From Flexistipes sinusarabici DSM 4947 (GTDB lineage Bacteria; Chrysiogenota; Deferribacteres; Deferribacterales; Flexistipitaceae), in assembly GCF_000218625.1 (NCBI RefSeq), contig NC_015672.1, forward strand, positions 1,711,451 through 1,775,450: a stretch of 64,000 bases of DNA. The letters are read 5' to 3'. Each line of letters opens with the position of its first letter. Positions within the stretch are counted from its first letter, which is position 1. Position numbers and translations under genes: made by a program. The notes beneath the pieces were generated by a model. It was given only the letters and a program-made list of their open reading frames with translations, was not told the DNA's origin and ran no database searches. Shown here piece by piece: positions 1 to 15,934 of this stretch.

Positions 1-1202
1 CATGAATTCCAATACAGAAGCAATTTCATTATATAAAAATTCTCTCTCTAAAGTCGTAATCCCTTCAAGTCAGGTCATGAATTCCAATACAAACTTATAA
101 AAGGATATGTGAATCTGGAACACGTTGTCGTAATCCCTTCTAATCAGGTCATGGATTCCAATGATGTAAGAGTATATTACGATGAGACAAGACAATTATC
201 GTCGTAATCCCTTCTAATCAGGTCATGGATTCCAATAAAACCACAAACGGTATGATCTTAAGGGTCGATGACAGACGTCGTAATCCCTTCTAATCAGGTC
301 ATGGATTCCAATAGGAACTAAGCATGCAATAAACACTGCTGAAAGATTAGGTGTCGTAATCCCTTCTAATCAGGTCATGGATTCCAATAATTATGGATGA
401 AACTAATGTCCATCCTTCCTGATTATGAGTCGTAATCCCTTCTAATCAGGTCATGGATTCCAATAAAATGTATCTATTGAATGCGTTCAGCTTGCAGATG
501 GTCGTAATCCCTTCTAATCAGGTCATGGATTCCAATACAGAAGCGTATCATTTAAGTAAAAATTCTTTCTCTTAGTCGTAATCCCTTCTAATCAGGTCAT
601 GGATTCCAATTGAGAGGGATAGAAATACTAAGATTTATAGGCGAGAATGTCGTAATCCCTTCTAATCAGGTCATGGATTCCAATATAAAAAAGGAGGAAA
701 AAATGTACCTTTTAAATGCATTCAGGTCGTAATCCCTTCTAATCAGGTCATGGATTCCAATCCTTTTAAATGCATTCAGCCTACAGATGATGGATGAGTC
801 GTAATCCCTTCTAATCAGGTCATGGATTCCAATAACAAATGTGGAAAGGATTTCGACAAATATAGAAAGTCGTAATCCCTTCTAATCAGGTCATGGATTC
901 CAATGTCGCCCAGTTGATGGGTGGCAGGTTACCGGAAGGGGCGTCGTAATCCCTTCTAATCAGGTCATGGATTCCAATGGTAAAACTGTCCAAGCTCTAG
1001 CCTGGCTTCAATTGCGTCGTAATCCCTTCTAATCAGGTCATGGATTCCAATCCGCCCGGGTGCTCGGAGTAGCGCCAAATAGAATCAACGTCGTCGTAAT
1101 CCCTTCTAATCAGGTCATGGATTCCAATGCCGGAAGGGAGCACAACCCTTCCGGAGGGTTACAAAAGTCGTAATCCCTTCTAATCAGGTCATGGATTCCA
1201 AT
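1..1202 (-). CRISPR. CRISPR array 1 of the type III-B locus, cut by the left window edge
   Basis: There are sixteen complete 36-bp repeats plus a partial one at 1-13. Complete repeats start at 53, 127, 201, 277, 353, 429, 501, 575, 649, 726, 798, 869, 943, 1016, 1093 and 1167. Spacers are 35-41 bp. As read on the plus strand, repeats begin GTCGTAATCCCTTC. The 15 leader-proximal ones end GGATTCCAAT and carry TAATC, while the two oldest end GAATTCCAAT and carry AAGTC like array 2. The array sits directly after the minus-strand cmr operon and its leader lies to the right, so it is transcribed leftward and the newest spacer is 1129-1166. Several spacers appear to derive from a DUF1874 gene (see findings). 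Confidence 0.98.
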
Positions 1203-1480
1203 AGTCCCTATTTTTATACCTTAAGTTTTAGTAAGTTACAATGCCATTTTTTAGGAAGGGGGGTATCCGGTTTTTCTACTTTTCAAAATCAGCCCCCCTA
1301 ATTCATAAGCTATTAATAATATTGAACAAAAAATTTATTGTGGATCTTTGTTTTATTTTTCATAACTTATTGTTAATAAAGTAATTTCATATAACTTAGA
1401 TTCACTCTAAAATCCACACGAAATTTTGCAAATTTACAAAACAAAACTTACGACTCGTTTTGTTTTGCACTTATCTCTAA
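1203..1480 (-). promoter_or_regulatory. Leader and promoter of CRISPR array 1
   Basis: This AT-rich segment is repeated with high similarity beside array 2 (24307-24590), and the match is best in the 65 bp next to the first repeat. On the minus strand a promoter-like pair is TTGTAA (1236-1241), a 17-bp spacer, then TATAAA (1213-1218). This puts the predicted transcript start almost at the first repeat. A perfect 11-bp inverted repeat (CAAAACAAAAC with GTTTTGTTTTG, about 1436-1466) closes the conserved block. The promoter and the leader duplication are seen in sequence. A role in spacer integration is inferred from the known function of leaders. Confidence 0.85.
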
Positions 1481-1510: not shown

Positions 1511-1915
1511 TTATTTTACATATCTTCTAAAATTAACATGCTCAAAAACACTCTGTTTTCCAACTTCACTTGCAGATATACTCTCTTCGGATGCAATACG
1601 TTTTGTTGTAGAATAGACAGGAATCAATCCCATATCAAAGCACCTATTAACTATATAATAAGTTGCACCAAAATCACCTTGAACCAACGCAAAATCCCCC
1701 TTGCTTGAGTTAGCATCAATCCAGTCGACTATTCGATCTAGATCTGAAACCGGTAAATCACCTTCAGGTCTTATATTTGACCAAATGTTCTGCAAATCAT
1801 CCGGCAAATAAACAAAACTTGTAATATTCATCGAATGAGCATCTTCAATCTGAACATTGGTCAGAGAATGCGAAAAAATAAGGAGTAAGTTTTTATTCGT
1901 TTTATAGTAATTCAT
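1511..1915 (-). CDS. csx20: Csx20-like type III CRISPR accessory protein (probable cA4 ring nuclease)
   Basis: This small 134-residue protein is the last gene of the cmr operon. Its start overlaps the end of cmr6 by 14 bp, so it is probably translationally coupled. Visible hallmarks are LLLIFSHSLT near the N-terminus, YLPDDLQNIWS, the central VQGDFGATYYIVN, PVYSTTKR and the C-terminal HVNFRRY. I recognise this pattern as the Csx20 group of short Rossmann-like proteins linked to type III loci. Members are reported or proposed to degrade cyclic tetra-adenylate and so switch off CARF and SAVED effectors. Its position next to a Csx1-type nuclease fits that. The family name is from memory, and a relative such as Csx15 or Csx16 is the main alternative. 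Confidence 0.68.
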   Translation of the reverse strand: MNYYKTNKNLLLIFSHSLTNVQIEDAHSMNITSFVYLPDDLQNIWSNIRPEGDLPVSDLDRIVDWIDANSSKGDFALVQGDFGATYYIVNRCFDMGLIPVYSTTKRIASEESISASEVGKQSVFEHVNFRRYVK

Positions 1916-3218
1916 TTAGATCTGGGCACTCTTCCAAAATTTTATCCTTAATTTTCTTATGATCTTTTAAGATTCTTTTTATTTTTTTCTTATCACCGTT
2001 TGCCTTTTTTATTTTTCTAAGAGCTTTCTTTAGATCGTTTTCAATATCATTATCTGTTTGTCTTTCAGTTTCTTCGCTTATGTCTTTACCAAAACTCTCT
2101 TCAAGGTTTATATCTAAAATTTCAGCAACCTTTTTATAATGAGCTGTAAATTCACCATTCGCTTTAGTCTTTTTCACCTTTTTCTTAAAAGTTTCAGCTA
2201 TTTCTTTATTATCATTTATTTTATCGTTATTCTCCCATTGCTGAAAAAGAGAATCTATTGAGCTGTTATCGTTAGTTACCTGGATTTTATCTATAAAACT
2301 TTTTATTTCTCTTTTTAGTTTTTCCTCTTCTGTTAAAAATTTTTCTTCATAAGCATCTATTAAATCTTGGGGTTCTTCATTGCTTTCAATAGTAAATCTT
2401 CCGTACCCTACTGCAGTTTTTGCTCCAACACCGTCCTTTTCAAGAGAATTTTTTACTGCACTTGACACATCATGCATTATTTGCTCTATATCTTTGGTCT
2501 CCTTATCAATTAGCACTCTGAAAATAAAAGTAGTTCCTTTTGCTACAGTTAAAAATTTAATTGGAGTTGGATCATAGTAATCAGCTGGGGGTTTAAATTC
2601 TGAATAATAAGGGCCGTAATGTGGGCTCATTATATCTACATGGAGATAGGGGGTTTTTTCAGGATATGCATCTAAAAAGATGACTTTGCCCCGCCTGCCA
2701 TTATCTTGACTTGTCCCAAAGATTGTAGGAATTTTTGTCCAATCTGCTTCGTCATCAAACCAACCTTCTTCATCAACTATATTTTTTCCATAGGCTTCAT
2801 CAACTAAAGATAAAGTATGGGCAAATCTAACAATGCCCTTTATGCTTGAAGCAGGTATATAAGGTATTCCCAAACTATGGTCAAATGTCATCCCCACTTC
2901 ACATGGGTGTGCATTACCAATGCCTGTAACCATGGGGGAGGAAAGAGTAGCCCTGAAAGTTAAAATTTTATGAGTTTTTTCTTTTGACTTGCAGAATGCA
3001 TATTGATTGAGATGTTTTGTTTCTATCAATTCTTTTAAAAATCTATTATACTCGCGCAAGTTTTCATACTGGTCTTTATAATCATTAACATCATTAACTC
3101 CAGACTTTAGCGTGTTGCCATCTAAGAATACAAATTTGTAAAACCAAAGGCCAAAATTACCTTGATTAAATTTATCTTTTGTTACCAAGTCTTTTATTTC
3201 TTTATGAACCGGTATCAT
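1902..3218 (-). CDS. cmr6: Cmr6, RAMP subunit of the type III-B effector, with a charged C-terminal extension
   Basis: Cmr6 is a Cas7-like RAMP subunit that caps the backbone of the Cmr complex. The family core is seen as FDHSLGIPYIPASSIKG followed by VRFAHTL, with a later glycine-rich strand VGAKTAVGYGRF. I place the start at the ATG at 3218 (MIPVHKEIKDL). It has a GGAG-type ribosome-binding site and overlaps cmr5 by 17 bp. The more upstream in-frame start lacks such support. The protein is about 438 residues. Beyond the RAMP core, roughly the last 150 residues are highly charged and helical (many Lys/Glu, e.g. KKALRKIKKANGDKKK), longer than a usual Cmr6. The extension's function is unknown. 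Confidence 0.93.
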   Translation of the reverse strand: MIPVHKEIKDLVTKDKFNQGNFGLWFYKFVFLDGNTLKSGVNDVNDYKDQYENLREYNRFLKELIETKHLNQYAFCKSKEKTHKILTFRATLSSPMVTGIGNAHPCEVGMTFDHSLGIPYIPASSIKGIVRFAHTLSLVDEAYGKNIVDEEGWFDDEADWTKIPTIFGTSQDNGRRGKVIFLDAYPEKTPYLHVDIMSPHYGPYYSEFKPPADYYDPTPIKFLTVAKGTTFIFRVLIDKETKDIEQIMHDVSSAVKNSLEKDGVGAKTAVGYGRFTIESNEEPQDLIDAYEEKFLTEEEKLKREIKSFIDKIQVTNDNSSIDSLFQQWENNDKINDNKEIAETFKKKVKKTKANGEFTAHYKKVAEILDINLEESFGKDISEETERQTDNDIENDLKKALRKIKKANGDKKKIKRILKDHKKIKDKILEECPDLNELL

Positions 3219-3624
3219 TTTTACTCTCCTCTCCACTGAACCATGCATTAGCATATCTTTTTACCCATTCTAAAAGTGCCAGAGTTTCTTTTTGGGCTGT
3301 AAGATAATCCATTTGTGACAATTGGGAAATCTCTTTAATAAATTCCTTTTCATTGTTGTTTTTATTAAAACCAACAGTACTCAACTCTTTAATAAGCCAT
3401 TCTTTAATTATGCGGAACATAACTATATGCTTATCGTTTTCTTTTATCTTCATATCCTTATCAGTTCCTTTTGCAACAAGAAATGCCATTGTTTGCCCGA
3501 AACCGTTTTGTAAAATCATGGAAGGGACTCCTGAAGAAAGTGACTTGAAATCTTTTTTATCGCAACTGATCGTTAATACTTTTTCTAAAGCGTATTCTGC
3601 TCTTTTTTGACCAAGTGTTCTCAT
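3202..3624 (-). CDS. cmr5: Cmr5, small helical subunit of the type III-B effector
   Basis: This 140-residue, mostly alpha-helical protein has the position and size of Cmr5, the small Cas11-type subunit that lines the inside of the Cmr filament and contacts target RNA. The N-terminal stretch RTLGQKRAEYALEKV and the motif LPSGVPSMILQNGFG-like SGVPSMILQNGFGQTMAF match the Cmr5 pattern (a conserved P-x-M-I-x-x-N-G-L/F-x-x-x-L/M). Its start overlaps the cmr4 stop by 4 bp and its end overlaps cmr6, so all are read from one message. No catalytic role is expected. The identification rests on sequence pattern plus operon order. Confidence 0.93.
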   Translation of the reverse strand: MRTLGQKRAEYALEKVLTISCDKKDFKSLSSGVPSMILQNGFGQTMAFLVAKGTDKDMKIKENDKHIVMFRIIKEWLIKELSTVGFNKNNNEKEFIKEISQLSQMDYLTAQKETLALLEWVKRYANAWFSGEESKNDTGS

Positions 3625-4574
3625 TTCGTACCTCCATCAATCCAGCTAACATTACAAATACCCTTACCTAAAGTGATATCTCCGCCAATCTGAAAAAAAC
3701 TATCTATACTTTCTTGAAGATATTTTTTGATTGCATCTGCCTGCAATTCATTAGATTTTCCAGAAAAATAGACAACACTGTATAATACTGAATCCGATGG
3801 CAAAAATTCCTGATATCTTAATCCACCCTCTGCTGCTGTCCCTTTTTCAGAGTTTATTTTAATATTTGTTTGGACTTCGGTGCATGAAGTGACACAATAA
3901 TCAAACATCTCATCAGAAATAAGTAGCAATCTCTCTACTTGAGGAAATTTGTCATTTAAAAATTCGGATTCGAGCTTCTCATTAGCATTAACATTAACAG
4001 TCACATCTTCCAGAATTATCCTACTATTATCATTAAAATTGCCTTTTATAATTTTAGCATTATCTTCTTCTATATTTAAATCCCCAAATGTTTCAGAAAT
4101 ATTCAAGTATTCCAAATCTTTTGTTAGCTTTTTTAAAATTGTAGGAGATGTAACCCAGACAAAAGGGGCTAAATTTGATCTCATTGGAAAAGCCAGCAAT
4201 TTTGCATCCGAAACAGATATTGATCCGGGGAACGAGGTTATTTTATTTTCTTTATCCTCAAGTTTTTTGTAATTTTTATTTTCCTCTAATTTTTCACTAA
4301 CATAATTCCCATCTTTAAAAACAACCTCGCCATCATTATCCTTATCGATTCCAAAAATCCAATTTGTTAAGTATTCTCTATCAGATTTGTTTTTTACATT
4401 ATTTCTAAAGTGGTCCCTCATAGCTCCTTTGACCCCTGAAGCCTGGATAATTGGATAGCCGGTATGTCTTTCCCTCTGAATGGGAAGGTCAACAGTTGCA
4501 ACAGATGCGCCGCTGCCTGCGTGGATTGGTGAAACAGCATAAAACGAAAGTATTGAGCATATTTCTTTGTTCAT
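3621..4574 (-). CDS. cmr4: Cmr4, backbone RAMP and target-RNA nuclease of the type III-B effector
   Basis: Cmr4 forms the repeated Cas7-type backbone and cuts the bound target RNA at 6-nt intervals. The N-terminus shows SPIHAGSGASVATVDLPIQRE, split here as the glycine loop at residues 18-24 and the DLPIQRE motif. Asp29 is in the place of the catalytic aspartate known for this family. RAMP core motifs PIIQASGVKGAMRDHF and a C-terminal GGDITLGKGI strand are present. The length of 317 residues is normal. It follows cmr3 after 15 bp and overlaps cmr5 by 4 bp. Nothing suggests inactivation, so target RNA cleavage is expected. Confidence 0.95.
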   Translation of the reverse strand: MNKEICSILSFYAVSPIHAGSGASVATVDLPIQRERHTGYPIIQASGVKGAMRDHFRNNVKNKSDREYLTNWIFGIDKDNDGEVVFKDGNYVSEKLEENKNYKKLEDKENKITSFPGSISVSDAKLLAFPMRSNLAPFVWVTSPTILKKLTKDLEYLNISETFGDLNIEEDNAKIIKGNFNDNSRIILEDVTVNVNANEKLESEFLNDKFPQVERLLLISDEMFDYCVTSCTEVQTNIKINSEKGTAAEGGLRYQEFLPSDSVLYSVVYFSGKSNELQADAIKKYLQESIDSFFQIGGDITLGKGICNVSWIDGGTK

Positions 4575-4589
4575 AATAATCCTCCAAGT

Positions 4590-5498
4590 TTAATTTATAC
4601 TTATACAATTATCAAAATTACTATTAAAAACAGTTCCTGCTGGGAAATATCCTTTCATAGGTTTGTGGAATCTTTTATGTAAGTCCCAACCCCCCAAGTA
4701 TTGAATTTTTCCTGTGGAAATTACTGAATCATTGACTTTAGCAGAAGCCGGCATCAATGATAGACTCATGAAAAGCTCACCATTAGTATTTAAATTAATT
4801 TCCAAATCTTCTTTTTTGAATTTACCAAATCTTTGCTCAGCTCCGAGAGTTAAAATACCTCCATTACCAAGATCATCTATATCAATACCAAAGATAAAAC
4901 TAACGCCTTTTTTTAATCTGCAATGATTAAATGAATAGATATGGCTCTCTCTGGCAGTATGGTCTTTATTAAGTGCAATTCCTGTCCTCAGCTCAGAAAC
5001 ATAAAAATCTTTTACGTCTTTAACTTCAGCTTTATCACTGCCATTTATTAAATCATTATAATTTATCCATTTGCCGCCAATTGACTCCAGTTCACTTTCA
5101 CCTTTTGCCCAATATAGATCATCAGATGAGGTTTTTATAAGATCTGATTGGATAGAAAAACCTTTAATTATATTATATTTTCCATTTTCAGAAGTAGCGC
5201 ATGATTTTTCAACAAACCATGAATAAGGAGCCGGTAAATAGATTTTTTCGTCAATTTTGAAAAAAGGACCAACTAATTTAAATCCACCGTATTCTTCACC
5301 TATTCTAACTATATCACTAAATTTATCCTCATTATTTTTTTTATCTATATTATAAAAATAAGTCCTGATAGCACCTGCCATAGTATGAACAGGCGGAGGA
5401 AAATTGAAATTTGCATTATGGTCCTCACCTTTTTCCATAGGCTCTGCACCTCTAAAAAAAACAGTATCATTCGGCTCAAAACTATACCAATTATACAT
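4590..5498 (-). CDS. cmr3: Cmr3, Cas5-like RAMP subunit of the type III-B effector
   Basis: Cmr3 binds the 5' repeat tag of the crRNA and links Cas10 to the backbone. The start YSFEPNDTVFFRGAEPM and the PPPVHTMAGAIRTYFY segment match the Cmr3 N-terminal pattern (L-x-P-x-D-x-x-x-F-R, then P-x-P-x-x-x-x-G-A-x-R). A late G-x-Q-Y-L-G-G-W strand followed by HKPMKGYFPAGTVF resembles the family C-terminus. The length of 302 residues is normal. Its start overlaps the cas10 stop by 8 bp, consistent with coupled translation and fixed subunit ratios. Confidence 0.93.
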   Translation of the reverse strand: MYNWYSFEPNDTVFFRGAEPMEKGEDHNANFNFPPPVHTMAGAIRTYFYNIDKKNNEDKFSDIVRIGEEYGGFKLVGPFFKIDEKIYLPAPYSWFVEKSCATSENGKYNIIKGFSIQSDLIKTSSDDLYWAKGESELESIGGKWINYNDLINGSDKAEVKDVKDFYVSELRTGIALNKDHTARESHIYSFNHCRLKKGVSFIFGIDIDDLGNGGILTLGAEQRFGKFKKEDLEINLNTNGELFMSLSLMPASAKVNDSVISTGKIQYLGGWDLHKRFHKPMKGYFPAGTVFNSNFDNCISIN

Positions 5499-8193
5499 TT
5501 GCTACCTCCTCATCCCGGTGAAGGAAACCGGCAATAATAAGTCCTTCATTACTAAAATTATCTTGGTGGTCAAAAATAATTTTTGAAATATTTGCAGCAA
5601 TTTCTTCTTTTTCTTCAGATTTTTTACCAGAACGATCCAGTTGTTTTAAAATAAATTTTTCAAGTAAATCATTTTGCTCACTTTCCTGATGCCCTTTTAA
5701 ATTCTTTATTGCATCTATCCCGTCTTTTAGTTCTGCAAGTCTGTAGGCAAGAGATCTGGACATCTCTTCACCCATTTTATTCTGAATGCTAAGGAAGGCT
5801 TTTAGGCGTTCTTTATCGTCCCATTTGCAAATGAAAAATCTATCACCACCACTGCGTTTTTTAAGCTGAATTGCAATGGCATTTCTGCCACCTTCATCTT
5901 TTGCTTTTTTATCAAGTAGGTTATGAGCTTCTTTTATCATGTGGGTCAAGTCAGCCTTATGATGGCAAATTAAAGCTCCTGCTGAAATGGAAATCTCTTC
6001 ACCTTTGCCTAAACTTAAAGAAAGTTTTCCTGGGTTTGGTTTAAAGTTTTCGGAAATGTTGGAAATATTGATTTTGTTTTGATTAGATTCAATAAGCTTA
6101 AATGTAGATTTGTAATAGTCGTTAATTTCTTCTGCTGCTTTCAAAACATTAGAAACTGGAAGCACCGCACACACGTCATCCCCGCCTGCGTAAATGAGCT
6201 TTCCATCATAATTGTTTACAATATTTGCTACACCATAAATGGCAAAATCTCCAAGGGACTCTGAGATGGCTGAATGAATGGCGGGTGTTAAATTCCGCTT
6301 TGGTGACTCCTGAAAAATCTTTTGCCAGTTTTCAGAATAAGGACTTTCTATTTTACCATTCTGTAATTTATCAAATATTTCAGGGTGCATGATTGATTCC
6401 CAAGTAGAAGCGATTGTCTCTCCATTGACCAGTTTACCCATACGGTCACCATCCATAAGAAGAAGAGCATAATATTTATCGCTATAGCGCATCTCTTTAT
6501 CACTTACATGGCTATCGTGTATGCCTTGAGCTTTTTCAATCTTCTCATTTTCATCTTCAATGCCTTCTCTTATGTAATAATCGTGCAAAGCCATATATGT
6601 GGTACTTGGAAAGTTAGAAGAATCTTTGAAAGTTTTGAATAGCAAATGCTCTTTATACTTTTTAATATAATAATACGACAATCTTTTTGTCAGACATATT
6701 GAACACAACTTTTCATTATCCTTTAAGTCAGAACCATCTTCACCTTCCCAACTTTCTTTTAAATTTTTCCAAAAATTGTCTATATTCGTTTTATACTCAT
6801 TTGCTGACATGCCTTTTTCATAAGGGTTACTGTGAACAACTTCAAATTCTCCGCAAATGTGACATTTTTCACCGGGTTCAGGTTCCCGCTCAATGGTTTT
6901 TCTGTTTTTTTCTGCCGCAAGTGCAGATTGGCAAAGGGAATGTGAAACAGAATACAATGTACCTATCCCGGATTTCTCATAGTATTTTTTATCTTTAATC
7001 ATGTCATTAAAACACTTTAAAACATCAAAATTAGCATTATAAACTTTAGAGGGTAAGAGTGATTTAATTTCATCTTTGTTTTCTTCTTTAAGCATTTTGA
7101 CTGAAGCCCATTTAAATTCCCAAAAATTATCATTTTGACGATTGAAAATGCTGTCGATATAACTTCTTTCATCACTGTTCATGTGGAGTTCTTGAAAAAT
7201 ACCTTCTTTCACTGATGAATAGATTTCCTTCCATGCCTGTTTAATGGATTTTTCAACTTCTTCAGCAATTTCTTCTGATTTGCTAAAAGGAAGTAAAAAT
7301 AGGAACTTATTGGGGAAGGAAGCTATATCACTTTCTTTGTTGAGAAAATTAACTCCATACTTAACTTTCCATTCTTTTCTTAAATATTCATTAACAAGAA
7401 ATTGATCGATAAGAGAAGGGTAAAGTATGTGATCAGGCCCTAAATTTTCTACTACCCATCTTATTCCTTCAAATGCCAGATAAGATAAAAATACAGAGCC
7501 AGTCCAGTAATCCCTTAGTTTTCTGGCTTTTGAAATAAAAGCCTGTACAGGTGATATATTGAAAACCATCATTCCCAGGTCATCTTTTCCACCTAATTCA
7601 AAGCAAGACTGAATTGCAGATACAAGAGCGTTATGCTGCCAAATAGAATGATCAGGAAATCTTGTATCAGCCGGTAACCTGTGCCACAAAGCTCCTATAT
7701 CGCCAACATTATCTTGTGCAAGTCTGAATCTTAAAACAAGATGGGTGTATAAAAACCTTGCTTTTTTGAAATCATTAGGTTTTCCTTCAAATTGATCAGA
7801 ATACCCTCCAGTCCCTGCTTCTTTACCAATCTCTTTCTCCAGATAATTTTTTAATTTCTCCCAAATCTGCTTTGCACTTGCATCAGATAAGTCAAATTTC
7901 AAATGAGATTTTTCGCCTGTGGGATGTGTAATAACGGGATTTTTCAAGAAATCAACCGCCCCACTTTTTTCCTCATCAGAGCTATATCCTACTATTTGTC
8001 CTCTTTCAAAGCCTGAAGCAATGCCGTCAGCTTTTTTCCAAAAATCCTGATTTGGGGAATCTATCCCAAAGATGCTTACAATTTCTTTCGCCCTTTCCAC
8101 ATGACCTTTTATATCAAAGCATTTATCAAATGGATCATGCATATATGCCCAAAATTTGTTGTCCCAGTAGTTTGCTGGTAGATTTATTGCCAT
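5491..8193 (-). CDS. cmr2: Cas10/Cmr2, large subunit and cyclic oligoadenylate synthase
   Basis: This is a 900-residue Cas10. The N-terminus carries the HD-like motif HDPFDK (His19-Asp20), as in Cmr2 proteins. Two Cys pairs (CHIC near residue 442 and CSIC near 498) form the usual zinc-binding insert. The first palm motif is LLLMDGDRMGKL (around residue 580). The second palm has an intact AGGDDV (about residues 670-673), the signature of cyclic oligoadenylate synthesis from ATP when target RNA is bound. This makes second-messenger signalling very likely and fits the CARF, SAVED and ring-nuclease genes nearby. DNase activity of the HD part is less certain. It overlaps cmr1 by 10 bp and cmr3 by 8 bp. 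Confidence 0.97.
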   Translation of the reverse strand: MAINLPANYWDNKFWAYMHDPFDKCFDIKGHVERAKEIVSIFGIDSPNQDFWKKADGIASGFERGQIVGYSSDEEKSGAVDFLKNPVITHPTGEKSHLKFDLSDASAKQIWEKLKNYLEKEIGKEAGTGGYSDQFEGKPNDFKKARFLYTHLVLRFRLAQDNVGDIGALWHRLPADTRFPDHSIWQHNALVSAIQSCFELGGKDDLGMMVFNISPVQAFISKARKLRDYWTGSVFLSYLAFEGIRWVVENLGPDHILYPSLIDQFLVNEYLRKEWKVKYGVNFLNKESDIASFPNKFLFLLPFSKSEEIAEEVEKSIKQAWKEIYSSVKEGIFQELHMNSDERSYIDSIFNRQNDNFWEFKWASVKMLKEENKDEIKSLLPSKVYNANFDVLKCFNDMIKDKKYYEKSGIGTLYSVSHSLCQSALAAEKNRKTIEREPEPGEKCHICGEFEVVHSNPYEKGMSANEYKTNIDNFWKNLKESWEGEDGSDLKDNEKLCSICLTKRLSYYYIKKYKEHLLFKTFKDSSNFPSTTYMALHDYYIREGIEDENEKIEKAQGIHDSHVSDKEMRYSDKYYALLLMDGDRMGKLVNGETIASTWESIMHPEIFDKLQNGKIESPYSENWQKIFQESPKRNLTPAIHSAISESLGDFAIYGVANIVNNYDGKLIYAGGDDVCAVLPVSNVLKAAEEINDYYKSTFKLIESNQNKINISNISENFKPNPGKLSLSLGKGEEISISAGALICHHKADLTHMIKEAHNLLDKKAKDEGGRNAIAIQLKKRSGGDRFFICKWDDKERLKAFLSIQNKMGEEMSRSLAYRLAELKDGIDAIKNLKGHQESEQNDLLEKFILKQLDRSGKKSEEKEEIAANISKIIFDHQDNFSNEGLIIAGFLHRDEEVANV

Positions 8194-9077
8194 TTGTTCC
8201 CCCCTGCTAACTCTTCAATTTTCTCGTTCATTTGTTCACAGGTATCAAGATATTCATCTGTTTTACTTGAATCTTTGTACTCATATGGCATAAACAATAT
8301 TTGCCCCTGGTATTGATCATTATCTAATTTACTTATATGTAAAAAATAAGGTTTTGCATATCTGCTGCCTTGGCTTTTTGCTATCAGCTGTCTTTTATCT
8401 CCTTGATATTTCAAAAAATATTTACTTTGTTTATATAATTCGCCAATTTCTGCAAGTGCTTCTTTCCATGTTTTGTGCTGTTTACCAAATAATATTTTTG
8501 ATTGTTTTGATATTGTAGTATATGTTGTCATATCTCTTTTTCTAAATTGATTTAAAAAATCTAATGTATTAAATTTTTTTGAATCAATTATCTTAAGTGA
8601 GCCAAAACCGTTTCTTGACTTAGATCCTAGTCCTCCAAAACTACACAAAGCATTTATAGAGTTCTCTATTTCTTGCATCTTTAAAGTTGATAATTTTAAA
8701 GAAAATGAAGATTTAGGCTCTATATAGTTTTTTATATTATTTTTAACTCTGTATCCATAAGCTAAATACTCATATATACTAAAATTATTATTATCTAGCT
8801 TCTCATTAGAAATAGAAATATTTTGATTTTTAAAGCTTATAGTAGTTGGTGATTTATAGTCTGTATTACCAAAAATTTCTGACTCATTTTTTATCGTTTG
8901 TTCTAAATCATCTGTTCCATACAAAGCCCGCCACCAAAAACGAAGCATTCCTTTTATAGAAGGTATTCGCAGTTCTGCATCATTCTGGTCTGCACCACCT
9001 AAAAACATTGGGGTAACAATTTCCATTTCGTAAATTTTTTCTTCTATGTCTCTATACCGTGCAATATTAAATCCCAT
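8184..9077 (-). CDS. cmr1: Cmr1, RAMP subunit at the distal end of the type III-B effector
   Basis: Cmr1 is the RAMP protein that sits near the 3' end of the crRNA and helps capture target RNA. The N-terminus shows EIVTPMFLGGADQNDAELR followed by IPSIKGMLRFWWRALYG, the standard Cmr1 signature with its conserved tryptophans. A later glycine-rich strand GGLGSKSRNGFGSL is the RAMP loop. The length of 297 residues is compact but normal for single-domain versions. A strong GGGGG-type ribosome-binding site lies just before the ATG, which directly follows the csx1-like stop. Confidence 0.95.
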   Translation of the reverse strand: MGFNIARYRDIEEKIYEMEIVTPMFLGGADQNDAELRIPSIKGMLRFWWRALYGTDDLEQTIKNESEIFGNTDYKSPTTISFKNQNISISNEKLDNNNFSIYEYLAYGYRVKNNIKNYIEPKSSFSLKLSTLKMQEIENSINALCSFGGLGSKSRNGFGSLKIIDSKKFNTLDFLNQFRKRDMTTYTTISKQSKILFGKQHKTWKEALAEIGELYKQSKYFLKYQGDKRQLIAKSQGSRYAKPYFLHISKLDNDQYQGQILFMPYEYKDSSKTDEYLDTCEQMNEKIEELAGGNKWQ

Positions 9078-10337
9078 CTATTCCCCCTTACATAAAATTT
9101 TATAAAAATACTGATTAAGCTCTTTTATTTTTTCAGTAAGTTTCTTATAATCGAGTGAATCTTCTCTATATCCACAATGGTTCATATCATTACGGTATTT
9201 CTTTAGAAGATCCATTTTATTGTAAAATTCATCTTTGTCAGTTCCAGACAGCCAGTTAATTGAATTTTTTATATTTGATATGTTTTCTTCATTTGCTCCA
9301 TCTTTAAAATAACTATTAATACTATAAGACACCTTTTCTCTTATATCTCTGTCCCAAATTTTATCAAAACCATAATCTAGTTTCGTAAAAAAAGTAATAA
9401 CGGTCTCTGATAGAAATGTGTACGCCTGCTGTACAAGTCCATAACTAATACACCATTTAATTATGGCAAAAGAATTTTCAAAAATATCATTTTGAAAGTT
9501 ACTGACGTTTTTATGAATCTTTTCCAATATACCTTCTAATGGTTTGACTACACCTAATTCTTTCAGATCATTAATTTCAGTTTTAAGCTGTTGGAAATTT
9601 TTAGTAACTGTTTCCTTACTGCGGCATGCTTCAATTTCATTCACAAATTTATATAATTCTGAAACCACTTTCTTGATTTTCTGAGCCTCTTGGTTTTTAC
9701 CTTTAGTTTCTTTTAAAATAGAAGATACTTCTATTAAACTTAGATTTCTTATTTGTTTAACGCTCCCGGTTTCTTCAAATATCTCAGCAGCTTTTGCCCA
9801 TTTTTGAATTGTAAATGTTGGAGTCAAATCAAAAATAGGTGCATTTCTTTCTTCAACTGGCATTTTTTCAACTTCACTCTGAGTTCCCAATGTTTCAAAT
9901 GCCCCATAGTAAATACCTATTATTTTAACTTTTTTAATAGATTCGAGATAGCTTATTGCAGATGAGAGGATTACTGGCATCAATCTGAAACCGTGAGTTA
10001 TATCTATTAATATTTCGTCATCTTCTTTAATTATATCAATGATTGTTTGAAATATATCCCAGATTTCGTTTTCACATGAGCCGGTGGGGATATCAACATG
10101 CTCAACCGAAAAAGGCAAATCTTGTAAACCGTTTTTTAAATTTTGCCAATGTTTATTTTTGGCGTCACTTGAAGTTAATACAAACCCTGCATCACTTTTA
10201 TACCAATCTTTACAAAAAATTCTTAATACAGCTTCTTGAATATATATTATATTGTCTATTTTTTGATTATCAAAATAATAATTGCAATTTTTATAATCTC
10301 CGGTTCCTAAAAAAGAGAGAAAAACCTTTCTACCCAT
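9078..10337 (-). CDS. csx1: Csx1/Csx2-family CARF-HEPN ribonuclease (TIGR02221-like)
   Basis: This is the cA4-activated RNase arm of the system. The start at the ATG at 10337 (MGRKVFLSFLGTGDYKNCNYYF begins here, shown as KVFLSFLGTG then CNYYF) is supported by a GGAGG site, and it overlaps the cas6 stop by 8 bp. The N-terminal half is a CARF fold with LIDITHGFRLMPV, a motif seen in ligand-binding loops of this family. The C-terminus has the HEPN RNase motif R-N-D-M-N-H (R-x4-H) some 30 residues from the end. By family knowledge, cyclic tetra-adenylate binding to CARF activates non-specific RNA cleavage by HEPN. The length of 419 residues is typical. The messenger type (cA4) is inferred. Confidence 0.9.
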   Translation of the reverse strand: MGRKVFLSFLGTGDYKNCNYYFDNQKIDNIIYIQEAVLRIFCKDWYKSDAGFVLTSSDAKNKHWQNLKNGLQDLPFSVEHVDIPTGSCENEIWDIFQTIIDIIKEDDEILIDITHGFRLMPVILSSAISYLESIKKVKIIGIYYGAFETLGTQSEVEKMPVEERNAPIFDLTPTFTIQKWAKAAEIFEETGSVKQIRNLSLIEVSSILKETKGKNQEAQKIKKVVSELYKFVNEIEACRSKETVTKNFQQLKTEINDLKELGVVKPLEGILEKIHKNVSNFQNDIFENSFAIIKWCISYGLVQQAYTFLSETVITFFTKLDYGFDKIWDRDIREKVSYSINSYFKDGANEENISNIKNSINWLSGTDKDEFYNKMDLLKKYRNDMNHCGYREDSLDYKKLTEKIKELNQYFYKILCKGE

Positions 10338-11241
10338 CCAAATCCTCCACTGAAATTTTACCAAAACCAAAGCCTGTATTTTTACCTAACCCAAAAATTT
10401 CACTGAAATTAAGCAATGATAACTCATAAGATGTGAAATAACCCTCCAAATCCATATGACCAACGCATCCGCCTAATTTCATTTTTTGTTTCTGTCTTGC
10501 TGAATATCGGTCATAATCCTTCCAGTATATACAAATGTTTTCCGATTTTTCTGACAATTTTTTTGTCAGATGCGTATCAACGTTATTAATCCCATATTTG
10601 GAGGATAATATTTCAGCTCTTCTTACAGCCGCGTATAAAAAATCTCTGTATGTTATTTTGTCAGTATATTTTCCGTTAATTTTTAACCGTAACGGAGAAT
10701 CCATATTTATACTTATTTTTTTATAAATTTCACTTGTACCTGTTGACAGCTCCCAATCTTTTGGCTCGGGGATCCCCAGTTCTTCACTTTCACCGTCATT
10801 CACCATCTTCCCGTCAGCAAAAATGCTGACAATGTCATACTTTGTTTTTCTGCGGAAGAGTCCACTCTCTCCACCTTTTTTGAAGGCATAAAATATATAA
10901 GGAAAATAATCGATACCTCTGCCAAATAATGTAAGGCGGAAATGTAAGCTATCAAGTTTTTTGTCAGCATCCTCGCTGCAAGAAATCGTAAAAGGATGGG
11001 AAACTTTATCTCGTCCTTTTAAAAATTCGTTGTCTTTGGATATGGGTGATTCAAAGATATAAGAGTAGGCGCATTGAAATTTAAGGGGGCATTCTTCGCA
11101 TTTTCTTCTTCTGAGTACACAGGCAAATGATTTGAGTTCTTTTCCCAATACAGATCTCAACAAAAAGGCCGGAAATACATCAGAATAAGTGGTTTCTGAA
11201 AATTGGATTGTAAAATCATATTTTTGGTACTTGATAAACAC
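10330..11241 (-). CDS. cas6: Cas6 crRNA-processing endoribonuclease, first gene of the cmr operon
   Basis: Cas6 cuts pre-crRNA within each repeat. The protein shows the cysteine cluster RRKCEECPLKFQCAYSYIF (about residues 46-64), typical of the PF10040-type Cas6, and ends with the glycine-rich loop FGLGKNTGFGFGKI. I choose the GTG at 11241 as start (MFIKYQKYDF) because GGGAG lies 5 bp before it. An in-frame TTG at 11253 is the alternative. A TATAAT box at 11270-11275 sits just upstream, so this gene probably opens the transcript that runs through csx20 at 1511. The length is about 303 residues. Confidence 0.9.
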   Translation of the reverse strand: MFIKYQKYDFTIQFSETTYSDVFPAFLLRSVLGKELKSFACVLRRRKCEECPLKFQCAYSYIFESPISKDNEFLKGRDKVSHPFTISCSEDADKKLDSLHFRLTLFGRGIDYFPYIFYAFKKGGESGLFRRKTKYDIVSIFADGKMVNDGESEELGIPEPKDWELSTGTSEIYKKISINMDSPLRLKINGKYTDKITYRDFLYAAVRRAEILSSKYGINNVDTHLTKKLSEKSENICIYWKDYDRYSARQKQKMKLGGCVGHMDLEGYFTSYELSLLNFSEIFGLGKNTGFGFGKISVEDLDG

Positions 11242-11269
11242 AAAGACTCCCAAAAAATAAGTTAGCTAT

Positions 11270-11275: not shown

Positions 11276-11478
11276 CCACGCTTTTATTAATAAACAAAAA
11301 AAAATTCAGATTCTGACAATATAATTTCGTACAATTATTAGATGTAATTGAGGCTGCTTTGGCAGATGATGTTGTAAAAACTGGTTTTTTTGCACAAAAT
11401 TCGACCTTAAACAAATGCAATGCAGCTATTTTGTCAGGAATATCAATTTATAATGTTATGATATATATTGGTGAAGAT

Positions 11479-12774
11479 ATGGAACAACTGCAGGAACTCA
11501 GAAAAAAAGCAAACAACTTAAAAGATAACCGCAAATATGAACAAGCGACAGAAATCTATAAACAAATTATAGATAATCATGAATCCCACTGTAATGATTG
11601 GGATTATTGGAATTATGCATTTTGCTTAAAAAAACAAAGAATGTATAACGCAGCTTCTGAAATCTGCAAAAGTTTGCTGCGTATAAATAAGGATTTTGTT
11701 CCGGCTAAAAATCTTTTGTGTTGGTGTCTCTTCTACTCAAAAATAAAAAACAAAAAATCTGAAGATGAATTCCTTGAGGCTTCAAGGAAAGTTTTAAAAC
11801 TATGCAGCCAAAAAGACAAATACTCCCCTTATACTATAACAGTTTTTAAGGTTTTGGAGCATTTTAAGCATAAAAATGATTACCCTGCAGAAAAAATTCT
11901 TAAGTGTACAAATATGCTTGATCCCGAACTTTTAAATTTTGAACCTTACCGAATAAAAGAGAATGATAAAGAGATAGAGTTAGCCTCCCAATTAGAGCTT
12001 TATTTTATGCATCGGACAAAAGCTTTACTTAACTGCGGTAAATATGATCAATGTATCAACGAATGTGACCATGCTTTAAAATCTTTAAACAAATTTCATT
12101 ACAACAATGACATTTGGTTTAAATGGCGTATGGCTTTGTCATACAAAGCTCTGGCAAAATATAAAGAATCAATTGAAGGATTGTATGAAATTGCAACCAG
12201 AAAAAAGGACTGGTTTATTCTTAAAGAAATCTCAGAAAATTTATACCACCAGAATAAAGTTGAAGAAGCTTTTATGTATGCTGTAAAAGCTTGTCTCAGA
12301 AAAGGTGATATAGATAAAAAGTTAAATTTATTCCTCTTAATTGCAGATATACTTATCAGTTTAAATGACAAAGTAAATGCTCAAAAGCATGTTGATTTCG
12401 TCTACCATTTTAAAATAAAAGAAGAAAGGGAAACAGGCACGTATTTAAACAACCTCATTTCTGCCAATAATTTTGAAATTTCAGAAGATCTTGACTTAGA
12501 CATGCAGTATAAACAACTGGTAGAGTTCTGGACACAGATTAAGGCATCAAGACAGAAAAGAAATACAGGTTTTATAAAAAAGCTCCTTCCGAATGGAAAA
12601 TCCGGATTTATAGAAGCTTCTGATGGCAAAACATACTATTTTCAGATTAGAAATATAAAAAATAATCCAGCTAATCTGCATGAAAGTCAAAAGGTAACTT
12701 TTTGTATAGAAGACGGCTTTGATGCTAAGAAAAATAAACCCAGTAAAATTGCTGTGGAAATAAAAACAGAGTAA
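11479..12774 (+). CDS. TPR-repeat protein with a C-terminal cold-shock/S1-like domain, inside the cas locus
   Basis: The protein is about 431 residues from the ATG at 11479 (MEQLQELRKKANNL), which has GGTGAAG 8 bp upstream. Longer starts exist at 11458 and a TTG at 11359 but lack a ribosome-binding site. Residues 1-330 are helical repeats of TPR type, e.g. RKYEQATEIYKQI, MYNAASEICKSLL and GKYDQCINECDHAL. The last about 70 residues form a beta-rich RNA-binding-like module (TGFIKKLLPNGKSGFIEA, then YYFQIRNI) resembling a cold-shock domain. It is the only plus-strand gene in the cas cluster, divergent from cas6 and ending exactly where cas2 ends. Function is unknown. An RNA-binding or scaffold role with the CRISPR complexes is an inference. 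Confidence 0.8.
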   Translation: MEQLQELRKKANNLKDNRKYEQATEIYKQIIDNHESHCNDWDYWNYAFCLKKQRMYNAASEICKSLLRINKDFVPAKNLLCWCLFYSKIKNKKSEDEFLEASRKVLKLCSQKDKYSPYTITVFKVLEHFKHKNDYPAEKILKCTNMLDPELLNFEPYRIKENDKEIELASQLELYFMHRTKALLNCGKYDQCINECDHALKSLNKFHYNNDIWFKWRMALSYKALAKYKESIEGLYEIATRKKDWFILKEISENLYHQNKVEEAFMYAVKACLRKGDIDKKLNLFLLIADILISLNDKVNAQKHVDFVYHFKIKEERETGTYLNNLISANNFEISEDLDLDMQYKQLVEFWTQIKASRQKRNTGFIKKLLPNGKSGFIEASDGKTYYFQIRNIKNNPANLHESQKVTFCIEDGFDAKKNKPSKIAVEIKTE

Positions 12775-13056
12775 TCAAATAATAGTTAAATCTTTTTCTT
12801 CGTGTGTAGGAGTGTTTCCTGCTGTTTCTATCATTTCAACGCAGTGTTTACACAAAAAATAGTATCTTATTGAATCTGTATCGAAATCGATATATTTTAC
12901 CAATCTGTCTTTCAGTTTCAAAAACTCAGCTTCAGTGATTATGCACTCAAAAACACTTTTTTGTACCCGCATCCCCTTATTTTTAAGAAGCTGATCTATT
13001 TTATTTCTTTTTCGGTCATCACTGATATCATAGCAAATAACGTAGTGTTTTTTCAT
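12775..13056 (-). CDS. cas2: Cas2, spacer-integration partner of Cas1
   Basis: This 93-residue ferredoxin-fold protein has the Cas2 start HYVICYDISDDRKRNKI (Asp10 at the conserved acidic position), the KGMRVQKSVFEC strand and a DSIRYYFLC strand. Cas2 dimerises and bridges two Cas1 dimers during spacer insertion. Its ATG overlaps the cas1 stop in an ATGA arrangement, and its stop codon abuts that of the convergent TPR gene with no gap. The CRISPR-Cas assignment is certain from sequence and context. Confidence 0.96.
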   Translation of the reverse strand: MKKHYVICYDISDDRKRNKIDQLLKNKGMRVQKSVFECIITEAEFLKLKDRLVKYIDFDTDSIRYYFLCKHCVEMIETAGNTPTHEEKDLTII

Positions 13057-14063
13057 AAACTGACTCTGAAACCTTTATACTCAACTTTATCCACCAATGA
13101 CTTGCTAAACAGGTAACACTGATATCTTATAATATCTCTTAAACTCATATTTCTCATTTTTGTATCGTGCCAGAATTTTTGATTAAATCGTTTTTCAAGT
13201 AGACTGATAAACTTTTTCCTGCCAAATACTGTGAGCTGTACAGGAAGTTTGTCAGGATCTCCATCTGTGTTCCAAACAAAATCCGACTTTTGCATTATAT
13301 TTTTATTAACTGAAGAAATAACCGGAAAATCCACAGCAACCGGCCTGAATTCCTCCATTAAATCGAGAACCAAAGACGGCCTCCCGTATTCTTCCGCATG
13401 GTATGCGCCGTAATACGGATCCAAGCCTACTGTATTTACAGATGTTCTCACCAAGTTTAATAAAATAGTATAACCAAAGCTGAGCATAGCGTTAAACTCA
13501 TTTTGAGGCGGTCTGCGGGTACGTTTTTCAAAGAATATCGGTCCTTTTAATAAATGATCAAATGCCCGGAAATATAAATTTGCTGTCCTTCCCTCAAACC
13601 CTAAGAGAGAAGAGATATTATCAATTTTGTCAATTTCCTTCAACGATGCAGTTAATTGATTTAAAATTTTCGATACCTCTCCGGACTTATGATAGTAGTT
13701 AAATTTTCTAAGCGTTTGAATACAATTTTTGACCTTTGAGCCTATTATTGATCGGGCAAGGCTCAGCTTGATGTTTTCATCAGACAATGTTTCAAACTGC
13801 ATTCTTCTCAACACTATATTTTTGCCGAGTTCAGCAACTAACCTGCCCAGATATTTACCGGAATAAGTTGTAAATACTGTATCAATTTTATTTTTGAGCA
13901 TGTGCTTCATTGCCTGAGTAGTAATACTTATATTTCCCATTATAACAATCTGATCCAAATCCTTTGAAAGGAAAGTTCCGACAATATTGCCATTTTTCCT
14001 GATTACTAACCTTTCACCTGCTATTGTGATATACGCTCCCTGCTCTGTAATATAAACTATCAT
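13053..14063 (-). CDS. cas1: Cas1, spacer integrase
   Basis: This 336-residue Cas1 has the N-terminal beta domain (VYITEQGAYITIAGERL, then IVIMGNISITTQAMKHML). The catalytic metal site is visible as LGFEGRTANLYF (Glu), DPYYGAYHAEEYGRPSL (His) and DLMEEFRPVAVD (Glu/Asp). The family inserts prespacers at the leader end of arrays. ATGA overlaps link it to the primase gene upstream and to cas2 downstream, so the three are one translational unit. Both arrays share a leader, so one Cas1-Cas2 set could feed both; that is an inference. Confidence 0.97.
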   Translation of the reverse strand: MIVYITEQGAYITIAGERLVIRKNGNIVGTFLSKDLDQIVIMGNISITTQAMKHMLKNKIDTVFTTYSGKYLGRLVAELGKNIVLRRMQFETLSDENIKLSLARSIIGSKVKNCIQTLRKFNYYHKSGEVSKILNQLTASLKEIDKIDNISSLLGFEGRTANLYFRAFDHLLKGPIFFEKRTRRPPQNEFNAMLSFGYTILLNLVRTSVNTVGLDPYYGAYHAEEYGRPSLVLDLMEEFRPVAVDFPVISSVNKNIMQKSDFVWNTDGDPDKLPVQLTVFGRKKFISLLEKRFNQKFWHDTKMRNMSLRDIIRYQCYLFSKSLVDKVEYKGFRVSL

Positions 14064-15817
14064 ACGTCCAGTTTATACGTAACTTTCCCGTTTTCATCTA
14101 CTACACGTCTGAATTTTCCTATAGCCGTACTGAATGTGTCCACACCTGAATTTTTAAAAAGTTTTTCGAACTTTTCCTCATATTCTTTCATTATAAGTTT
14201 TGTTTCATAAGTCTGCTTTTTCAGTTTGATATAATCTTCCAGTGCATTTTGAAAATTCACAGAATTTATGTCTAATCCACGGGGAATTTTAGAGGGAATG
14301 TCCTGCTCCTGGAGATGTAAAACCGGTGTGGGATAAAGCCCTTCTGCATAAACAAACTGACAGTTGCAATCCATCTTTGATGTTATATTCGGAACTCTCG
14401 AGCGAATTTTTGCACAACTGACGGGATTGCCTTTAAGTTTTGATTTTAAAAATTTTTCCTGCTGAATATTAAAACACTTTGCGAATATAGAATTTACCGC
14501 TTCTACTCCGTTTTCCAAATGCCCAACTGTGTGAGTCAGGACAATCATTTCGTCATATGAAAGTTCATTTTTACATATTGCATTGTTAAAAATTTCTTTA
14601 ATCACGGGACATTTATAAATAAGATACTGAAATTCCTTATCACTATCAATGTTGTATTGAGTGGTATGGACAGGGATTTCCATTTTTTCTGAAGGTGCCA
14701 TCTGTTTTGTGCCTGTATTCTCATAAATACTGCTCAGCCGGTAATAGTTTAGATAATCCAAAATTTCCGATTCAGAAGCTTTTTGTATGTTTTTTAAATA
14801 ATTATCGACATCTGTTATCTCTCTGCCTTTGCTGTCAAGAAAGCAGCTTCTTCTCCCATTGGCAAGATGTATTCCCAATGGCATTTTAACCAAATTTCCA
14901 ACTCCGTTTGTTTTTACAAAATTTTGTTTAGGAAAAACCTCTATGGCTACCTCCGGTATTTTAGAAGGGATATTGAGCTTAATGTGTTCGCCAAACCTTT
15001 TAGCAAGTCTTGCAGGTAATGGTTTTACTAAGAATATCCAGCAGTGTCTTCCTTTGTAGCCGCTGTGTTCAATATAAACGGGGATATTAAATTTTGAACA
15101 TTCATCAGCAATTGATTTTGCTGTATTTTGTGTTGCAATATCAAGCTCTTTCCATTTTTCATCATCTGAAAGTGCTTGTTTTAAGGCAAATTTTGCAATA
15201 TCCACGTCTATACATATCCAATTAATGGTACTGTCCAGCCGGTGCTGATATATACCTATTGTTATGTTGCCATTTAAATGATTTCTTATGACTTTCTCAC
15301 TCAGCGGTTCATAAACAGGTATATATCCTGTTTTGCCTTCGGGGCTTTTCCACTGCCTTGCGTAAACCCCTTCTCTGCCGTTAAAGAGTGAAAAAAGCAT
15401 CGTTAATGTTGTATTGGAGAATTGTTTCTGCATCAGATAGTTTTGATTTTTATCCTCGAATATATTTTTAAAATAACTGTTGTTTGTCTGTTTAAAAGCA
15501 TATCTTGCTAATTTTTCCGCTGATTCTGCATTGTCAATTTCCAAAAGTATATTTACAGCCTGCTTGTAATAACCGGCGTTTTTTGGCTCTATCTCAATCA
15601 GTGACTTCAATATTTTCAACGCTCTTGTAGGGTTTGTATCGTTAAGATGGTATTCAAGTAGTTTTTCAAATATCGGCTTTTTATTGTCAGTATGTTGAAG
15701 AGCCAAGTTAAGATTTTTAAGCATAGCTTGAATATCACCTTGATTTTCGGCTTCTTCAGCAGTTTTCAAATATTCTTCATAAGATTTTTGATAACCGAGA
15801 TCATTACTTTGTGGCAT
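14060..15817 (-). CDS. CRISPR-associated primase-polymerase (CAPP), TPR plus AEP domain, next to cas1-cas2
   Basis: The protein is about 585 residues from the ATG at 15817 (MPQSNDLGYQ), which has AGAGG 8 bp upstream. Residues 1-125 are TPR-like helices. Residues 140-370 look like an archaeo-eukaryotic primase domain, with acidic motif WICIDVDIAKF (D-x-D), HSGYKGRHCWIF (S-G-x-x-G-x-H) and VGNLVKMPLGIH. The C-terminal third contains several Cys (SCAKIRSRVPN, SKMDCNCQFVY), possibly a PriCT-like region. Known CAPPs fused or linked to Cas1-Cas2 have primase and polymerase activity and are proposed to process or copy prespacers. Operon position at the head of cas1-cas2 supports a role in adaptation. 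Substrate preference (RNA or DNA) cannot be read from sequence. Confidence 0.85.
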   Translation of the reverse strand: MPQSNDLGYQKSYEEYLKTAEEAENQGDIQAMLKNLNLALQHTDNKKPIFEKLLEYHLNDTNPTRALKILKSLIEIEPKNAGYYKQAVNILLEIDNAESAEKLARYAFKQTNNSYFKNIFEDKNQNYLMQKQFSNTTLTMLFSLFNGREGVYARQWKSPEGKTGYIPVYEPLSEKVIRNHLNGNITIGIYQHRLDSTINWICIDVDIAKFALKQALSDDEKWKELDIATQNTAKSIADECSKFNIPVYIEHSGYKGRHCWIFLVKPLPARLAKRFGEHIKLNIPSKIPEVAIEVFPKQNFVKTNGVGNLVKMPLGIHLANGRRSCFLDSKGREITDVDNYLKNIQKASESEILDYLNYYRLSSIYENTGTKQMAPSEKMEIPVHTTQYNIDSDKEFQYLIYKCPVIKEIFNNAICKNELSYDEMIVLTHTVGHLENGVEAVNSIFAKCFNIQQEKFLKSKLKGNPVSCAKIRSRVPNITSKMDCNCQFVYAEGLYPTPVLHLQEQDIPSKIPRGLDINSVNFQNALEDYIKLKKQTYETKLIMKEYEEKFEKLFKNSGVDTFSTAIGKFRRVVDENGKVTYKLDV

Positions 15818-15934
15818 ATTCAAATCCTCTATAAAATTAGGATAACTGTTTCATATATCAACAAACAAACACTACCGACATTTTCTGACAAATTTTTATC
15901 TGGATTTTCCACTTAATATAAATTATAAAAAATT

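Follow-up and report, generated by a model that had tools for sequence, protein, structure and literature searches.

Spacers of a type III-B CRISPR system in Flexistipes sinusarabici concentrate on one small viral gene, a putative AcrIII-1 ring nuclease

Sixteen of the 81 spacers in the genome of Flexistipes sinusarabici, nine of them among the 35 in the 64,000-nucleotide stretch analyzed here (hereafter the window), belong to a single viral gene of the DUF1874 family, and together they span its roughly 280 bp from the ribosome-binding site through the C-terminus. By its family, the targeted protein is a putative anti-CRISPR that degrades the type III signal molecule cA4. The concentration of spacers on this gene is probably the product of selection, in which cells survived when their crRNAs matched the acr transcript before the enzyme could accumulate.

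CRISPR arrays and the host type III-B locus

F. sinusarabici MAS10T, an anaerobe of Red Sea brine, is moderately thermophilic and has a chromosome of 2,526,590 bp and no plasmids (PMC3236037). The genome paper has the entry "CRISPR repeats 0" (PMC3236037), whereas about 80 repeats were found here in three arrays, all built from one 36-nt repeat family (Table 1). Alignment of the right flanks revealed about 245 nt common to the three arrays (91–98% identical), and at the left end of each the repeat is interrupted by a hairpin insert. The leader is thus placed on the right and the trailer on the left in every array, and the crRNA would have the sequence of the - strand, its repeat ending in ATTACGAC. 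From the shared flank we infer that array 1 is transcribed from right to left; a promoter scan of the leader gave no signal above chance.

The insert that splits each trailer-end repeat is about 50 nt long, has a perfect hairpin ending GAGCTTGCTGGA and occurs in two versions; the split repeat lies at 22790-22883 of the window and at the left ends of all arrays. Inside array 1 (genome 1709498-1711203), a block containing trailer sequence, about 320 bp in length, is present three times, and the repeats alternate among three variants. The array looks composite, much like the product of recombination between arrays.

The interval between arrays 1 and 2 contains a complete III-B operon, an adaptation module and a CalpS/CalpT/CalpL-like module. 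Cas10 (Cmr2) carries the cyclase motif GGDD at residue 670 and is encoded together with cmr1, 3, 4, 5 and 6, the gene content that defines type III-B. Csx1, a CalpL-like protein and Csx20 are all encoded as well; their relatives use or degrade cA4 (PMC12409355), and cA4 is probably the molecule to which Csx1 and CalpL respond in this host. In the window no reverse transcriptase was found next to cas1 or as a fusion with it; Cas1 is bare and its neighbor is an AEP primase. The gene between the cmr operon and cas2 (11359-12774, + strand) encodes a protein that combines a TPR region and a cold-shock-like OB domain and matches a PADLOC CRISPR-neighborhood model at 2.4e-181.

Table 1. Features of the arrays and of the type III-B locus. 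Positions are those of the window unless marked as genome positions; the strand given for a spacer is the sense of the target mRNA.
Feature	Position	Strand	Evidence or remark
Array 1	genome 1709462-1712652; window part 1..1202 (leader-proximal half)	-	repeat scan; repeat as crRNA ATTGGAATCCATGACCTGATTAGAAGGGATTACGAC
Second hot spot ("TEAYHL") spacers	14-52, 537-574, 23181-23219; genome 1710153, 1711170, 1430392		
Spacer GTKHAINTAERLG, outside the DUF1874 set	313..352	+	not among the best 45 of 81
DUF1874 spacer KMYLLNAFSLQM, codons 1-11	465..500	+	14.8 bits, over every shuffle
DUF1874 spacer, ribosome-binding site + MYLLNAF	685..725	+	2.9 bits, p 0.0025
DUF1874 spacer, LLNAFSLQMMD	762..797	+	12.4 bits
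DUF1874 spacer VAQLMGGRLPEG	905..942	+	18.9 bits; includes conserved R and E of RLPEG
DUF1874 spacer ARVLGVAPNRINV	1052..1092	+	9.1 bits, over every shuffle
DUF1874 spacer PEGSTTLPEGYK, newest in array 1	1129..1166	+	18.0 bits
Array 1 leader	1203..1447	-	alignment of right flanks, three arrays
csx20	1511..1915	-	PADLOC 5.5e-50; relatives are cA4 ring nucleases (PMC12409355)
cmr6, cmr5, cmr4, cmr3, cas10 (cmr2), cmr1	1902..9077	-	III-B effector
csx1 (CARF-HEPN)	9078..10370	-	HEPN motif R393xxxxH
cas6	10330..11253	-	PADLOC 1.5e-80
cas2, cas1, TPR + AEP primase-polymerase	12775..15823	-	adaptation module
CalpS/CalpT/CalpL-like: HTH protein, Unk_02/CRISPR-T, SAVED-Lon	19444..22514	+	PADLOC SAVED_LON_TM 5.7e-161; Pfam SAVED
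Array 2	22862..24306	-	trailer left, leader right
DUF1874 spacer, ribosome-binding site + MFL	23256..23293	+	19 identical nt with spacer 685
DUF1874 spacer LGVEHNRINVSLK	23405..23443	+	9.2 bits
DUF1874 spacer MLGEFPASVKID	23630..23668	+	1.7 bits, p 0.008
Array 3	genome 1428495-1430685 (beyond the window)		

Spacers that belong to DUF1874

A profile of 28 viral DUF1874 proteins was run against the six frames of all 81 spacers and against 4860 dinucleotide shuffles, which reached a maximum of 8.1 bits and a 99.9th percentile of 3.6 bits. Eleven spacers scored 9.1-19.3 bits and a twelfth 6.4 bits; the members at 685, 23256 and 23630 were assigned more by overlap, start-codon context or position than by profile score, and genome 1710078 was included on account of its overlap with 1429503. 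Seven members lie beyond the window: four upstream in array 1 (genome 1710078, 1710656, 1710733 and 1711389) and three in array 3 (genome 1429503, 1429873 and 1430612).

Many of these spacers are tied to each other or to viral genes at the DNA level. Spacer 685 shares 18 identical nt with 762 and 22 of 26 nt with 465, and the stretch it has in common with 23256 includes the ribosome-binding site. The closest DNA match was obtained for spacer 905, which agrees at 30 of 32 nt with the DUF1874 gene of viral contig L009; spacer 23256 agrees at 29 of 37 nt with the start of the DUF1874 gene of viral contig L003, and 23630 resembles MIGEFPAMVEI of L014 and MLADFPAS of L039. Where spacers overlap they have diverged (31/35, 29/32 and 21/27 nt identical, the last for genome 1710078, SDQIPWSELSSAI, against 1429503, PWSELESAIGHP), which points to several viruses and at least two variants of the target. 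Six of the nine newest spacers in array 1 are of the DUF1874 type; together with the divergent overlaps, this suggests that the pressure was repeated and recent.

The initial annotation, made from the letters alone, had placed five spacers of the window in this family. All five peptides read as it had given them, in + frames and at its coordinates, and four of the spacers (905, 1052, 1129 and 23405) score above every shuffle. The fifth, KHAINTAERLG at 313, which had been taken for the His-bearing active-site segment, earned no profile score and ranked outside the best-scoring 45 of the 81 spacers. In the viral family this segment reads SA[IV]GHxDTAxVLG, to which KHAINTAERLG can be fitted only if one residue is taken as inserted, and the true His segment, ESAIGHPDTARV, is encoded in array 3, beyond the window. 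The "TEAYHL" spacers, also assigned to DUF1874 at first, fail the profile and form a separate second family. The estimate of about ten members in 35 was therefore close in number and partly wrong in membership; 23630 had not been named in it.

Identity of the target gene

A composite protein was assembled from the spacers, MYLLNAFSLQMLGEFPASVKIDEVSDQIPWSELESAIGHPDTARVLGVAPNRINVSLKKGDTAYVAQLMGGRLPEGATTLPEGFRFKYLKVEV, in which "EV" after KID and KGDTA were filled in from relatives. With these few residues filled in, it passes PF08960 at 31.0 bits (cut-off 26, E 2.9e-7) in the kind of profile search that the initial annotation had called for; the NRINV and RLPEG spacers were not assigned to an HTH family, which it had named as the alternative. 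Composites that included spacer 313 and the TEAYHL spacers stayed below PF08960. The composite also matches SIRV1 gp29 (PDB 2x4i, E 2.7e-7), STIV B116, 2j85 and 6scf, as well as phrog_5063 (8e-15), and its identity to IMG/VR proteins reaches 74%; even before correction, a 73-residue composite matched a DUF1874 gene, that of Thermoanaerobacterium phage THSA-485A, at 7e-10.

The viral relatives lead to the same family. Their profile matches SIRV1 gp29 at E 2.3e-13, and L004, L007, L041, L018 and L027 score 31-48 bits against PF08960, with L042 and L043 slightly under the cut-off. A structural model of the L004 protein, the nearest relative at 74% identity to the composite, has a pLDDT of 95, and its top PDB match is 6scf (AcrIII-1) with a TM score of 0.72. 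The GH and RLPEG segments of the family align with SIRV1 gp29, and both were also found in the spacers. In AcrIII-1 the His is the catalytic residue, and the R and E of the R-L-x-E-G segment are conserved. Overall, the sequence and fold comparisons support the assignment of the target to the viral DUF1874/STIV_B116 family and, by family, its designation as a putative AcrIII-1 cA4 ring nuclease.

Such genes are rare in phages, with AcrIII-1 reported in 36 of 28,114 genomes (PMC12409355). No DUF1874 gene was found in the host genome or in 60 relatives; the spacers are thus records of foreign DNA, and self-targeting of the host was rejected. Searches of phage records yielded no exact or near protospacers, and within the genus the spacer matches were confined to the arrays themselves. 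The DUF1874 relatives sit on contigs and plasmids of about 9 kb to 242 kb.

Size of the excess

Chance would account for 0.5-3.4 spacers on this gene, against 16 observed. Even sampling of a 40-kb virus would place 0.6 of the 81 spacers there (P(≥16) = 5e-18), and the excess becomes ordinary only for a target near 2 kb (P(≥16) = 0.2). With both hot spots set aside, the other 59 spacers form about five overlapping pairs, and so few overlaps imply a pool size near 16 kb (7-49), from which the probability of 16 spacers ranges from 2e-7 to 6e-20. The claim that the excess lies far above expectation is borne out even at the most conservative of these target sizes.

When 385 genomes were scanned with the profile at a permissive threshold, this genome gave nine matches, all in the arrays, and each of the others at most two, mostly in long unrelated frames. 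A pattern of acr-derived spacers was seen in no other genome among the 385, which argues against a general rule, and none of 51 genomes of the phylum held a match coding for LPEGxTTLPEG. In a phrase search of open-access journal articles, no prior description came up of spacers concentrated in this way on a gene for an anti-CRISPR.

Strand bias and probable selection through the acr transcript

All 16 DUF1874 spacers lie on one strand and, with the leader on the right, their crRNAs would be antisense to the acr mRNA. The other spacers share this lean: 48 of 65 do so by a codon model that assigns 82% of known fragments correctly, and 49 against 13 are purine-rich in the direction of the DUF1874 strand. 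A large survey found type III systems to prefer this strand as well (PMC8482600), and in Thermus both the hot early region and the antisense bias of type III spacers were attributed to selection and not to uptake (PMC7515739).

That matching the acr gene pays most is the simplest account of the concentration. AcrIII-1 destroys cA4 and shuts off type III immunity; guides on other transcripts of the same viruses would therefore fail once the enzyme is made, and the cells that relied on them would be lost, whereas guides on the acr transcript would remove the source of the enzyme. A crRNA of the latter kind would trigger Cas10 and destroy the message before the cA4-degrading enzyme accumulates. 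Repeated selection of this kind by several related viruses would leave spacers that tile one gene. We consider it probable that the spacers became concentrated through selection of cells equipped in this way; the removal of cA4 in this host, the early synthesis of the enzyme and the precedence of selection over uptake bias are inferred.

Folding of acrIII-1 messages

Several spacers contain perfect stems of 7-11 bp within coding sequence, five such hairpins occurring in acr pieces, and 20 of the 81 spacers (25%) fold significantly, compared with 7% of random viral 39-mers. When whole genes were scored against synonymous codon shuffles, the 28 viral DUF1874 genes, some of them mutually related and all called mechanically, gave a mean z of -3.5, with half below -3 and the lowest at about -9. 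Their neighbors were intermediate (mean z -1.87), 138 genes taken from 52 random viral contigs averaged -0.56 (3.6% below -3), and host genes averaged -0.31 with none below -3; the difference from random genes was significant for acr genes (p 6e-11) and for their neighbors (p 8e-12). Four annotated acr genes agree with this: those from phage THSA-485A, two thermophile plasmids and a Nitrosomonas plasmid scored -3.3, -4.8, -5.9 and -2.8, respectively. The sense strand is more folded than the antisense (-3.5 vs. -2.65, p 0.008), as expected for selection on RNA. No conserved RNA structure was found in acrIII-1 genes, the covariation term being unfavorable, which points to foldedness as such. The survey covered L001-L027, L039-L044 and L166-L169, among which contigs L007 and L015 are hairpin-rich throughout; an Rfam search over the first 25 kb of the window gave no match above cut-off.

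Structured targets are known to be detected less well by III-B, with a loss of two orders of magnitude in the case of one guide (PMC8682760), which makes shielding of the message a reasonable idea. We put forward only tentatively, as a possibility that we rather doubt, that viruses fold the acrIII-1 message and others so as to hide them from crRNAs or from Csx1-type RNases, in an RNA-level arms race; foldedness could also stem from another trait common to these viruses. If confirmed, folded acr messages would constitute a new viral counter-measure to RNA-targeting immunity.

Alternative explanations

Significant hairpins in 20 of 81 spacers, the strong one-strand bias and the presence of an AEP primase-polymerase in the adaptation operon would all be accommodated by a bias in uptake, whereby abundant or structured acr transcripts were copied, for instance via the primase-polymerase near cas1, with no special benefit to the cell. 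Hairpins, however, characterize acrIII-1 genes generally, so that no uptake bias is needed to explain them. Moreover, cas1 has no reverse transcriptase beside it in the window, the CAPP enzymes studied strongly prefer DNA templates (PMC8211822), and type III uptake in Thermus is two-stranded in the absence of selection (PMC7515739); this explanation is unlikely.

Six overlapping spacers, diverged copies of FRTEAxxLxKNSxS on the same strand, make up the second hot spot. Neither an alignment search of IMG/VR nor PHROGs gave a match for the FRTEA..L.KNS family, and seven matches to a degenerate pattern were discarded as unrelated proteins. This hot spot may represent another counter-defense gene, or it may be a sign of a general early-gene effect, in which type III immunity protects only via early transcripts and the function of the acr gene is irrelevant. 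The protective spacers against Thermus phage phiFa do cluster in early genes 40-49 (PMC7515739). Yet the 16 spacers in about 0.32 kb of acr gene are some 13 times as dense as the remaining pool (59 in about 16 kb), and the only gene that is tiled is one whose known role is to counter exactly type III immunity, which makes an early-gene effect alone quite unlikely. Two smaller recurrent groups, YTPDDVKVRGID / GID(E/N)..I.HV and LIKG.V..E.V, were also observed on the same strand (window 23107-23144 and 23705-23742 with genome 1709855, and also window 89-126 with genome 1428531). Peptide searches of other spacers against acr-bearing viral loci returned noise only.

A mini-element of about 2 kb with DUF1874 would reduce the tiling to plain sampling, as the calculation for that size indicates, but the low overlap of the 59 other spacers implies a far larger pool and the known relatives sit on much larger molecules, so that such a small target is very improbable. 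Chance resemblance, or membership of another family, might be argued from the mere 11-13 residues per spacer and from a first composite that missed Pfam; it is virtually negligible in view of the shuffle test, the mutual overlaps, the concentration of DNA matches in viral DUF1874 genes, an excess unique among 385 genomes and the pass of PF08960.

Selection through the acr transcript would bear on how type III hosts stay ahead of AcrIII-1, since the repertoire suggests repeated targeting of the anti-CRISPR transcript itself. Over-targeted small genes in type III arrays may also offer a route to unknown anti-CRISPRs; were they mined for this purpose, FRTEA..L.KNS would be a first candidate.

Comparison with known systems

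The host locus resembles known III-B (Cmr) systems that carry Csx1, Csx20 and CalpL/T/S: the full gene set was matched by PADLOC and Pfam models, and no component falls outside known kinds. Its adaptation module has a CAPP-like primase-polymerase and no reverse transcriptase. The target shares with the AcrIII-1/DUF1874/PF08960 proteins (SIRV1 gp29, STIV B116) the profile, the predicted fold, the conserved His and the R..EG segment. Unlike AcrIII-1 of SIRV1 and STIV, it is known here solely as spacers in a host array, and its bacterial-virus branch differs from SIRV1 gp29 and STIV B116 in the NAFSLQM and GGRLPEGxTTLPEG motifs and in a shorter middle. The nearest parallel to the spacer set is that of Thermus thermophilus spacers selected by phage phiFa (PMC7515739), which are likewise antisense to mRNA, fall in a narrow region and were explained by selection. 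The phiFa hot region, however, extends over several early genes, one of them for an RNA polymerase, whereas here it is one small, putative anti-CRISPR gene, and the spacers that tile it derive from several related viruses.
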